DNA from: Lutraria lutraria
Taxonomy: Eukaryota; Mollusca; Bivalvia; Venerida; Mactridae
NCBI GenBank assembly: GCA_964023205.1
Contig: OZ026842.1
Location: 37,835,501-37,899,500, forward strand
Length of the DNA stretch: 64,000 nt
Direction of reading: 5' to 3'
The position numbers and the translations under genes are program-made. Each line of letters opens with the position of its first letter. Position 1 is the first letter of the stretch. The notes beneath the pieces were generated by a model that had not been told where the DNA came from, ran no database searches, and saw only the letters and a program-made list of their open reading frames with translations. This document shows positions 25,971 to 43,700 of the stretch, one piece after another.

Positions 25971-26507
25971 AACATCATCATCTCATTGTTCATTCAAATC
26001 TTCTATCGACATTAATCGGCTTGTATCAGGTATGTTTTCTTTATATATTATTATGTGGTCGGCCCAACATAGCAGACACTATTCTTCTCACCATTTAATT
26101 AATGACACATCATTGACTGTTTACATATTTTTTTGTAGCAGTGTAAGATACTATATGTCTGGTCACGATTACGCTTACTAAGTACTTCAGGTAATTTAAC
26201 ATAGTTACGGGCATTGACCCGGTGTTAGTTACCCCAAATAGATGCTGTATGTAGTTTTGCCTAGTATAGTCATTTGAACACGCATGTAGAGCCTATCAAT
26301 GATAAAGGTAATAACAATATTTAAAAAACAATCGTTAAACTCTAATAATTATATTTTGTGACGATTCTGTGTATTGAAATTTTGTACAGATAATTCTAAG
26401 TTGTGTATAATGTAATCTCATGTTAAAAAAACTAAGCGAGCCAATCATTTCAGACTGACTGATACAAACAATGGGATATTTGCTGGCGCTGTTGATTGTT
26501 ATTACAG
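25971..26507 (+). promoter_or_regulatory. Possible 5' UTR exon(s) of gene 2
   Basis: A TTCTTCAG acceptor-like site precedes 25971, and TATCAG/GTATGT, a good donor, ends at about 26030. The ATG exon is preceded by CATTTCAG at 26446-26453. An untranslated exon 25971-26030 spliced to 26454 would fit. No clear core promoter motif is seen; this rests on splice-site pattern only. Confidence 0.3.
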
Positions 26508-29500
26508 GTAAGTTCAGACATGTCATTTTATTGTCTTATATTGTTCAATTCAGTTGAAGCGCTGAGCTAATTTCATTTAAAGCCCATATGTCAACTAATT
26601 CAAATAGATATATACAAATATAAACACAGGACCGAACATTATTTCTAGAAAATGCTGTAGTAGCAGGCAGTGATCGCTTCCTTGCCCAATGAAGAGCTTC
26701 ACGTTCGTACACTATTTCATATAATGAGTTGACGACGTAATCCAATTGGTCATAATCGTAAAAAATGTTGTGAAAGTTTTGTTCAGATTCTACATATATT
26801 TAAATCTAGCTGTCTCAACCATTTAACACAAGTGTGTTTTTAAGAGAACTTTTAGTTTTGCGATAGAAATTCCGTACCTTTCATATCGAGATCAAATGAA
26901 ATTTTGCAACATTGCCGTATTTTACAGGCTCCGGGTACAACAAAGGTCATGCTGTAGAGGACTTTTACGACTTAACCAACAGGTACTGGGTATGGAGACT
27001 TCAGGATTCACCAGAATTTGGAAACTCCATTGGCATAACGAATCATACAGATACCATCGAAAGCTTCTCGGTTGATATTCTTGAACAGCGAAATGTACGT
27101 ATAGCAATATAATAAATGGGTGTTCAAAACATTCTAGATTGTTACGGCTTGTATTTACAGATATAAAATCGAGATATCACCTACATAATTGAGTTAAGCA
27201 TTAAATGTTTACATGACAAATCGACGTTTAAGAACCGTTGAAATAGTACAGTGAGGATTTAATAGCTTTTCCTACGTATTTCTGGAAGAACCAAATATAT
27301 CAATAAACTGGATAATTATAAAGTCGACATTACTACTGTTTTAGAAAGAGATCACTGGTTTCCGGAATGAATTGAAGGCTGTTGATAAAACCATGTTAAA
27401 TCAGACAACACAAGTCGCTTATGATGTACTATTGGACACATTGGAGACTTACCTGGATGGCTACAAATGGAGAAAGTAATTTTCATTCAAGTCTTTTTAC
27501 AATTCTGAATCATTATTCATTTTTCATTCTTAAATAATACAATACAATAAGTACTCGCTTGTAGTAGTTTGTGATTACATGTATTTTGGAAATTCTAAAC
27601 TTATTTCTGATCTCGCGTGGAATATATTTGTGCAATTTGATAGCCTACAGCCAACGTTTGCTCTAACTTGTGTCATACACAGCAGATTTTACAAATGCTC
27701 TAAATGAAACATGTCAATGGGATGCAATACGTCAAAAATTTCTTTGCTTTGTTTGAATATGTTTTTAGTTACGGACCAATGAACCCAGTCACTTTTCTTG
27801 AAGGCATTTGGAGGTACCCTGATTACCACATACCAATAACCCTGGAAACTTTCGAGCACTTCGACAACTTCATTAGCCAAATTGTACTATTGGGCTTGCA
27901 GGTAAATGATTTTAATTTCGTGTTCGTTACAAGTTATCCGGTTACTGCGTTGTCCAGTAATGACCATAACGTACACAAGACAATGAGACATGGTGTAATT
28001 CTATCTTTAGTAATCAATAACAATAACATGTGAAAATAGTCACTTTTTAATGCATACATTGGAATATGGAGATGTAAATAGGTTGTTATCTAAATAACCG
28101 AGTACTGCATGACTAAACACATAACACATCAGATCCCAACGACCAATGAGGATGAATAAAGACCAAAATAGAACTATTTCTTTGTTTAATTGAGAAGGAA
28201 TTGGAACGTAAATAGCACGTAAGCACAACTCAATTGTAAAGAATATAATGGTAGAAACAAGAACATACTCCACGTGACATCAAATCTCTGTAGATATTTA
28301 CACATGTAAAGGCAAATCAATTTACGATCGAATGTGAATTTAATCGATCAAGTTATGTAACAAACTTTGATGTCAAATATTGAAGTAATTGAAAGGAAGG
28401 ACTACTTTGCATTAACATATGTAATACGGTGAGATACATGAGTGATCCTAATAATATTCAATTATTTCTTATTTTAGGTTGATGATTTAATCGCAAGAAT
28501 GAACGTGGCCATTGAGCACAAAACGACCAGTCATAATGTAACAGTGGTATGTTTTTTACAATGGATTACTCTGAAGTCACATAGTTTAGAAATATTCTGA
28601 CCGACATGACGAGTTTTTCCTGCTTGGTTTGGCCATTTCAAAATGATATTCATGTAGAAAAAAAAATCTTTTAGAAATTGATGTTTTGCTATTTTTTCTA
28701 CCAGCGTAAAAACTCTCACAAACTTTTCAAAACATGTAAATGAATTAAGTATATTTACTTACTATCAATAAAACTACGATAATTGGTGCAATACTGTATT
28801 ACAATAGTTATTACCCTTTTTAAATAGTGAGTAGCATTCAGCAAATGCGTAAGATAATTACCCTATTATGGATATATAGTAATGGTGAAGTGATTCCATT
28901 AAATGTTGTCATGTTGTTCAGTGTTACCTTTTTTATACCCCACAAGTTACGTGCCATGCCTCAGATCGATGACCTCATTGCCGACTCGCCGACTGATGTT
29001 GTTCTGTACAAAATATTTATCGAAAGGCTAGGTAACGCATCGTTATCTAAGAGCGATACGTAAGTTTACAAAATGTATTTTTCTTTTCAAAATTGGATGA
29101 ATATCAATGAGCAGGTCATGCTATATGATTGCTCGGTATTGTTAATAAAAGTTAATAAAAAATAAACGAGTTAAATGTATTAATCTAAATGTACAAAGGC
29201 TAATACACTCTTATTCATTCAGTATATTCATTTAAATATCAGTTTTGAGAATAAAGAAAAACACACCAATGTGTCCTGGTTGTTTAACTATATTTATATA
29301 ATGAAAATAATCTTTCCAATCCGAAAACCGAAAATAAAATTGACACTTAAGATAAACACTACTTTCCAGTTTACCAAAATGTTAGCTTTTACATAAATCG
29401 ACTAATAAATTTAAGATAAAAGCTTGTTTTACCACGCATGACTTCTAAGTTAATAATGTGTAAATACTTCACTCGATAAGATGGTGAAAATAATTTAAAA

Positions 29501-43300: not shown

Positions 43301-43700
43301 TGATATTTTGACCTACATGTACATTAAAAATGATTTCGTGTTGAAAATTTAACCAAACAGAAGTAAAATTATTTCTCTTTTTAAGACATTTTAGTAGTTT
43401 AAATTACTGAAAATAACCTTCTTTCTTGTGTTTTCTTTCAACATTTATCTTCATCTGTTTACTTCAGGTGACTTGTTCAAACTAGCTGACTTCCATTACA
43501 CTGTACTGAAGCATGGAGCCATGCCATTAGATGTACTGGAAAGAATTGTAGACGACTGGATAGACAATGTGCTGTCAGTAAATAGCCCGACCAATCCTTG
43601 TTACTCTGATGTATCATCCGCTGAACTACCACCAAGAAGTTCACCAATCACCATTGTCCTCTTAGTAACAATAATACATATAATTGAACTAGTACTTTAA
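26471..43700 (+). CDS. Two-domain DUF885 putative metallopeptidase, gene 2 (frameshifted as read)
   Basis: Tandem paralogue of gene 1, complete at both ends, with 33 coding exons. It starts MGYLLALLIVITG, a short hydrophobic signal peptide chosen because it splices in phase into the first DUF885 exon. Domain A covers about residues 15-594 and domain B about 595-1206. HEADPGHHLQ falls near residue 408 and HEAIPGHHLA near 983. The last exon ends in a Ser/Pro linker and a hydrophobic tail (ITIVLLVTIIHIIELVL), a likely GPI-anchor signal. Exons total 3620 nt, one short of a multiple of three. The missing base is in 42541-42611, where TGA follows SEKC, so the literal product stops near residue 1057. 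The donor after 35192 is AT rather than GT. These are either pseudogene damage or assembly errors; every other exon is open. Confidence 0.87.
30309..30558 (-). mobile_element. SINE (family S3)
   Basis: Contains AACCAGTACTAACTTACCC, GGAGCCGGC, TTTTTGTCAAGTTTTCATAG, a TTTGAACC B-box remnant and a CCAGCGCACTAACTGCTGG head on the minus strand. In the intron before the exon at 30699. Confidence 0.65.
34366..34391 (+). repeat. (CT)n microsatellite
   Basis: Uninterrupted CT run in the intron before the exon at 34469. Confidence 0.9.
36949..37120. mobile_element. TA-flanked MITE (Tigger/pogo-like ends)
   Basis: Starts TACAGTTCCACATCTCT and ends AGAGGTTGCACTGTA, with an interior of AACACCCTTCAGGAGTAG and TCAAGAGAGGGCCGCTCTGG. 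Non-coding, in the intron after the exon at 36792-36922. Same family as 39534-39692 and 55002-55197. The CAGT ends and TA flanks recall pogo/Tigger DNA transposons; this is inference. Confidence 0.65.
39534..39692. mobile_element. TA-flanked MITE (same family)
   Basis: Begins TACTGTGCAACCTCTCTACAG, contains a (GTT)n run and AAAAAGAGGGCCGCTCTGG, and ends near TTCAGTA. In the intron after the exon at 39278-39445. Confidence 0.65.
41880..41960 (-). mobile_element. SINE fragment (family S3)
   Basis: GAACCAGTACTAACTTACCATTCCACAA matches the core of the other S3 copies; the rest is lost. Intron of gene 2. Confidence 0.45.
42541..42611 (+). pseudogene. Frameshifted exon of gene 2 domain B
   Basis: The equivalent exon of gene 1 (18984-19055) is 72 nt with ACAGTGAAGAGATGTTGAG; here the stretch reads ACAGTGAGAAATGTTGAG and the exon is 71 nt. 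The single-base loss gives SEKC followed by TGA. The rest of the exon, read in the shifted frame, and all later exons are intact and conserved. Confidence 0.85.
42640..42745 (+). mobile_element. SINE head (family S3)
   Basis: GTAGTCCAGTAGTTAGTGCACTGG (A-box region) and GCGTTCGAATCTC (B box), then TTCCATGAAAAATTG, which matches S3 copies in reverse complement. 5' part only. Lies just after the frameshifted exon. Confidence 0.55.

Follow-up and report, generated by a model that had tools for sequence, protein, structure and literature searches.

Two tandem genes for putative GPI-anchored, two-headed DUF885 ectopeptidases in the bivalve Lutraria lutraria

Introduction

DUF885 (PF05960) is a widespread protein family with solved folds. 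The solved members (3o0y, 3iuk and 3u24) come from bacteria, with 546-585 residues modelled per chain, and two of them are named lipoproteins. The closest parallel to the system described here in terms of a two-domain plan comes from a different family, M2, and is provided by somatic ACE, including AnoACE9 of Anopheles. The two heads of ACE prefer different peptides. According to the part of the source available (PMC1325048), two-domain ACE arose on three occasions, and AnoACE9 received a strong prediction for a glycosylphosphatidylinositol (GPI) anchor. In this report, we describe a locus of Lutraria lutraria within a stretch of 64,000 nucleotides (assembly GCA_964023205.1, contig OZ026842.1, positions 37,835,501 to 37,899,500 of the forward strand), hereafter called the window, whose own numbering is used throughout. 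The locus carries two tandem genes (gene 1 and gene 2) with two DUF885 domains each, referred to as heads A and B. Unlike the solved DUF885 members, the bivalve protein is a secreted animal protein with both heads on a single chain.

The accessible literature on the family, consisting mostly of titles and the beginnings of abstracts, contained no assigned DUF885 activity. In these partial texts, DUF885 is listed under horizontal gene transfer in Dictyostelium (PMC3188802), a zinc site is predicted for one member (PMC12572635), a 606-amino-acid DUF885 protein appears among the putative venom components of a venom-snail transcriptome (PMC11359391), and one DUF885 gene is mentioned in a fungal paper (PMC8478523). 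No literature pairing DUF885 with a bivalve was found.

Results

The model of gene 2 (26471-43700, forward strand) was drafted by eye from open frames and then corrected with the relative from Mactra antiquata. It comprised 33 coding exons, with each intron bounded by GT...AG (Table 1). The coding start (26471) and the end of the stop codon (43700), as well as the A/B joints of gene 2 (35770/36219) and gene 1 (10480/11177), had all been proposed in an initial annotation made from the sequence alone and were identical to the base in the rebuilt model. DUF885 was the sole Pfam family listed for the domains in the window. Domain A matched profile positions 1-532 of 532 (417.3 bits, E = 2.4e-124) and domain B positions 1-531 (401.2 bits, E = 1.9e-119), the gathering score being 32.4. 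Each domain was approximately 600 amino acids long and contained HEADPGHH (A) or HEAIPGHH (B), followed in both by EGWALYAE; these whole-profile matches and motifs confirmed the two full DUF885 domains with HExxPGHH described in the initial annotation. The two window genes each had the HExxPGHH motif, together with the conserved downstream EGW and PGQ, in head A as well as in head B. In the first-draft model, which lacked two exons, domains A and B were 40% identical (223 of 555 columns). The annotated signal peptide and the C-terminal tail without a cytosolic part were consistent with hydropathy, by which the N-terminus was hydrophobic (best 15-residue mean of 1.87) and a hydrophobic run ended at the last residue (mean of 2.86). 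The structure of gene 2 is beyond chance, because 22 of the 25 blastn matches between the tandem copies fell on homologous exons, in order (three did not), and because the relatives aligned end to end.

The A/B joint of gene 2 was in frame, and the phases at the joint matched in both tandem copies. Eight ATG frames began in the gap between the domains (35771-36218), the longest of 20 codons, and none of them had a signal-like start running into B. A double protein of 1177 amino acids (P0003) was encoded on a contig of 3696 bases, which is too short for introns and therefore transcript-like.

Relatives were searched for with the first-draft double protein as the query, which yielded 208 proteins at E ≤ 0.001, the best 120 of the 208 being listed; a further search used domain B of gene 1 in the corrected model. 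Among the matches listed, double A-B proteins were found in Mactra (63%), Ruditapes (its model missing the start of A), Dreissena, Mya and Potamilus and in P0003, triple proteins in Sinanodonta (A-A-B) and Mytilus, and a further double protein in the woodlouse Armadillidium. The same pair, which the initial annotation had proposed to look for in other molluscs, was therefore present in several bivalves. The proteins of Mactra, Ruditapes, Mya, Dreissena, Potamilus and Sinanodonta had the A-B order (A-A-B in the last) and the motifs in common with the window proteins. Pfam reported two DUF885 stretches in P0001 (Mactra), P0003 and P0008 and three in P0002 and P0004, and no NCBIfam family exceeded its cut-off for P0001 or P0010.

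A quick IQ-TREE phylogeny with SH-aLRT support was built from 84 domain rows, representing 67 of the 215 fetched proteins (56 single rows and 24 rows from 11 multi-domain proteins) and four rows from the window; P0009 (Tegillarca, broken model) was excluded. The 10 A-type rows formed one clade (97) and the 17 B-type rows another (100). Both clades included heterodont and unionid sequences, following the accepted placing of the genera, so the simplest reading is that A and B became joined ahead of the split between these lineages. In Sinanodonta, A was doubled later. The three Mytilus domains clustered with two Mytilus-like rows (100), giving this triple protein a separate origin in the tree; the two Armadillidium domains were sisters (100), as were the two domains of the metagenome protein P0049 (100). 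Since the domains of each group among themselves, these multi-domain forms look like separate events. The two domains of another metagenome protein, P0048, fell apart in the tree. A and B formed one clade in the best tree with a support of 0, and the grouping of A, B and Mytilus as one clade gave a marginal p value of 0.045 with all Mytilus-clade rows included. An earlier p value of 2.8e-56 against the latter grouping was discarded, as two Mytilus-clade rows had been left out of that test. The B-type clade also included P0123 and P0126, two Mya fragments that begin inside domain A and gave no match to the motif pattern. The domain A module of gene 2 measured 1776 bases and was in phase 1 at both its start and its end; its copying, skipping or loss would therefore leave the frame intact. 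In Dreissena, P0121 and P0122 are B-type single-domain proteins that each have a leader of their own, which fits a loss of the A module.

Neither head of either window gene had lost any of the six motif residues or the Glu in EGW, and the same held for nine of the 10 A-type rows. Residues 409-416 of P0003, in head A, read HEADPGRH, with one motif His replaced. In 230 motifs, with near-copies counted separately, the residue two positions after the last motif His was Gln in 208, Ala in 12 and another residue in 10. All 12 cases of Ala were B-type. At this position, the fused proteins of heteroconchs had Ala in all nine B domains and Gln in nine of the 10 A domains (Leu in P0003). Three B-type single-domain proteins of Dreissena carried Gln, which speaks against a simple Gln/Ala rule. 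It is a reasonable guess from these sequences that the Gln/Ala contrast reflects a difference in specificity between the heads.

The folds of two modelled relatives (P0008 and P0121) matched the solved DUF885 structures, followed by M32/MATCAP carboxypeptidases, M3 oligopeptidases and ACE. The matched chains of M32 carboxypeptidases and MATCAP/TMCP1 were of one-domain size (332-510 residues) and showed 9-12% identity. M32 carboxypeptidases carry the motif HExxH, as does ACE (PMC1325048). The window heads have HExxPGHH instead; in both HEADPGHH and HEAIPGHH, Pro occupies the position of the second His. A phmmer search of the Mactra protein against PDB chains returned only three sequences up to E = 1, all of them DUF885. 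By this comparison, the two-headed bivalve protein is best read as resembling ACE in plan without belonging to the ACE family.

The protein encoded by gene 2 contained 14 N-glycosylation sequons, versus 7.1 ± 2.4 in shuffled sequences and one or two in the five bacterial or metagenome proteins examined. In eight of the 10 multi-domain proteins, including both window genes, the sequence ended 0-2 residues past the hydrophobic peak. A small-residue patch (SSAE, SSTE, TSKS or SSLS) preceded the tail in five of these eight (both window genes, P0001, P0005 and P0002). The hydrophobic tail was absent from P0003, P0008 and the woodlouse double protein (P0015). Judged by hydropathy, the layout combines a signal peptide with a hydrophobic C-terminal end lacking a cytosolic part, as in GPI-anchored proteins, and a GPI anchor would fit these sequences.

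The window covers gene 1 from within exon A8 onward, with its 5' part lying outside, and no lesion was detected in the part inside. As far as it lies within the window, gene 1 is the intact representative. The substitution rates were calculated with our own Nei-Gojobori script on the corrected exon model. In A (287 codons, from A8), the tandem copies were 72% identical at the amino acid level, with a synonymous divergence (dS) of 1.67, near saturation, and a ratio of non-synonymous to synonymous divergence (dN/dS) of 0.11; the corresponding values for B (609 codons) were 83%, 0.49 and 0.19. At the sequence level, purifying selection between the copies was evident. The synonymous difference in B was patchy, ranging from 0.10-0.23 (B2, B7, B8, B13, B15) to 0.61-0.81 (B3, B5), and this unevenness, the sole basis for the proposal, suggests gene conversion in B. 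Relative to Mactra, gene 2 was more changed than gene 1, both in A (43 versus 16, p = 0.0004) and in B (32 versus 17, p = 0.03). A dispersed repeat (18547-18648 and 30330-30434, 70% identical) was also observed in introns of both genes.

The initial annotation had described gene 2 as one open chain of exons, which is contradicted by exon B14. This exon has 71 bases, compared with 72 in the paralogue, and a stop codon is met inside it. When the allowed choices among nine donors, 15 acceptors and 19 second donors were tried, 20 combinations stayed open, none of which kept the whole of B13 and B14; skipping of B14 preserved the frame with the loss of the exon. The ancestral donor of exon A15 has also been lost, as its place (35193-35194) reads AT in gene 2 and GT in gene 1. 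Two substitute GT donors, in frame and open, lie seven and 10 codons (21 and 30 bases) downstream, and the model takes the second. The resulting 10 extra residues were absent from gene 1, P0001, P0003, P0005 and P0007, and P0006 (Dreissena) had eight different residues at this site. The donor of exon A13 (33830) reads gtgtgt in gene 2 versus gtaagt in gene 1, possibly a further sign of relaxed splicing signals. As assembled here, gene 2 has the look of a relaxed or damaged copy, or of one that a sequencing error has broken.

Table 1. Positions of the DUF885 genes, domains and selected exons in the window
Feature	Position	Strand	Remarks
Gene 1	1..20965	+	Tandem paralogue; 25 exons in the window, 898 amino acids, A-B layout
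A16/B2 joint of gene 1	10373..11313	+	10480/11177; phase as in gene 2
Exon A1	26471..26507	+	Holds the start codon and encodes the signal peptide; phase 1 at its end
Domain A, gene 2	26928..35770	+	16 exons, A2-A16, including A4b (28478-28546)
Exon A11	32662..32722	+	HEADPGHH, metal motif of head A
Exon A13	33759..33829	+	GWALYAE; the invariant E preceding GW is the last codon of A12
Exon A15	35023..35222	+	Model donor 30 bases past the ancestral donor place; 10-residue insert
Exon A16	35663..35770	+	Last exon of domain A; provides the donor for the A/B joint
Domain B and tail, gene 2	36219..43700	+	16 exons, B2-B16, including B5b (38358-38470); stop ends at 43700
Exon B11	41256..41316	+	HEAIPGHHLA, metal motif of head B; Ala in place of the usual Gln
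Exon B14	42541..42611	+	Frameshift; one base fewer than the paralogue
Exon B16	43468..43700	+	End of domain B, SSAE spacer, hydrophobic C-terminal tail without a cytosolic part

Downstream of the tandem genes, a piece of a sodium:solute symporter-like exon was located at 55850-56134 on the reverse strand (Pfam SSF, 20.1 bits, just below the cut-off of 22.8). A tRNA scan of the window found none. DUF885 also occurred in acorn worms, cnidarians and a ribbon worm (P0187, P0194, P0204, P0057, P0205, P0200), and nine bacteria-type rows were set apart from the other 75 in the tree. Three bacterial or metagenome proteins of approximately 1250-1300 amino acids (P0073, P0080, P0097) combined DUF885 with prolyl-oligopeptidase domains (PF00326, PF02897). 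In Solemya velum, DUF885 was fused to a PF00375 domain, which belongs to a symporter family (P0041), perhaps through a merged gene model.

Discussion

We read the locus as two tandem genes of a bivalve (heteroconch) family of probably GPI-anchored, two-headed DUF885 ectopeptidases with differing heads, at a probability of about 0.62. The protein would consist, in order, of a signal peptide, head A, head B and a hydrophobic tail, the tail probably giving way to a GPI anchor. A single metal ion is most likely bound per head, via the His residues of HExxPGHH and a downstream Glu. Judging from the fold and motif, the heads would be carboxy- or oligopeptidases, each of which would trim oligopeptides in the extracellular space. 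Next to the active site they have diverged, with Gln in A and Ala in fused B, and they would therefore probably prefer different peptides and may divide the labour between them. The double-headed ectoenzyme proposed in the initial annotation is retained with regard to the secreted two-head layout, which is conserved in bivalves. What weighs against it for gene 2 is the frameshift in B14, owing to which the full protein, as drawn, may not be made from this copy.

The state of gene 2 can be explained in two ways. There is close to an even chance that the frameshift is an assembly error and that gene 2 is an intact two-headed gene evolving somewhat faster, given that the one-base loss adjoins a short run of A, the adjacent exons are intact, and 22 of the 23 B14 codons (0.957) give the same residue as in the paralogue. 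Such an error, however, leaves the independent loss of the A15 donor and the higher rate of change unexplained. Both of these, along with the frameshift itself, would be expected if gene 2 were a decaying copy, with A deprived of its normal splice donor, B frameshifted and gene 1 as the sole working copy. We regard decay as a serious possibility that falls somewhat short of even odds, as, in the model, the remaining 32 exons read through and are separated by GT-AG introns, the dN/dS between the tandem copies is well below 1, A15 has substitute donors in frame, and a single missing base may be a sequencing error.

The other alternatives concern the protein itself. Were the tail a plain transmembrane anchor, or cleaved to release a soluble digestive enzyme, the tailless P0003 and P0008 would be easily accommodated; this is unlikely in view of the eight multi-domain proteins ending at the hydrophobic peak and the small-residue patch ahead of the tail in five of them. 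It is less likely still that the heads, or at least head A, bind peptides or another ligand without cutting, as a pseudo-enzyme or receptor. The HEADPGRH of P0003 and the departure of heterodont head A from family-wide conserved residues outside the motif point in that direction, against which stand the motif residues and EGW Glu intact in both window genes and in all but one of the A-type rows. Two single-domain proteins wrongly merged by the exon model, the case that the initial annotation named as contrary to its own reading, are very improbable. Most DUF885 proteins among the matches listed are of single-domain length, and P0121 and P0122 are B-type proteins with their own hydrophobic start. 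Nevertheless, the phase-matched joint in both tandem copies, the short ATG frames of the gap, none with a signal-like start into B, and the recurrence of the fusion in seven relatives (six double, one A-A-B), including the protein on the transcript-like contig, all argue against separate proteins.

The conserved, secreted two-headed DUF885 form is a clear, testable protein, with two heads, two motifs and a Gln/Ala contrast. For ACE, the part of the source available (PMC1325048) asks why two active sites per chain have been selected repeatedly, and the bivalve protein would bring an independent example to this question. More tentatively, and at somewhat less than even odds, bivalves may possess their own two-headed surface metallopeptidase, independent of ACE, in which a phase 1-1 module underwent a single fusion ahead of the heterodont-unionid split and later duplicated again (A-A-B), and in which the heads differ in specificity, as marked by the change of Gln to Ala next to the metal motif in fused B. 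If true, this would, together with the cases in Mytilus, a woodlouse and bacteria-like metagenome proteins, indicate repeated selection for several active sites per chain in this class of peptidases.
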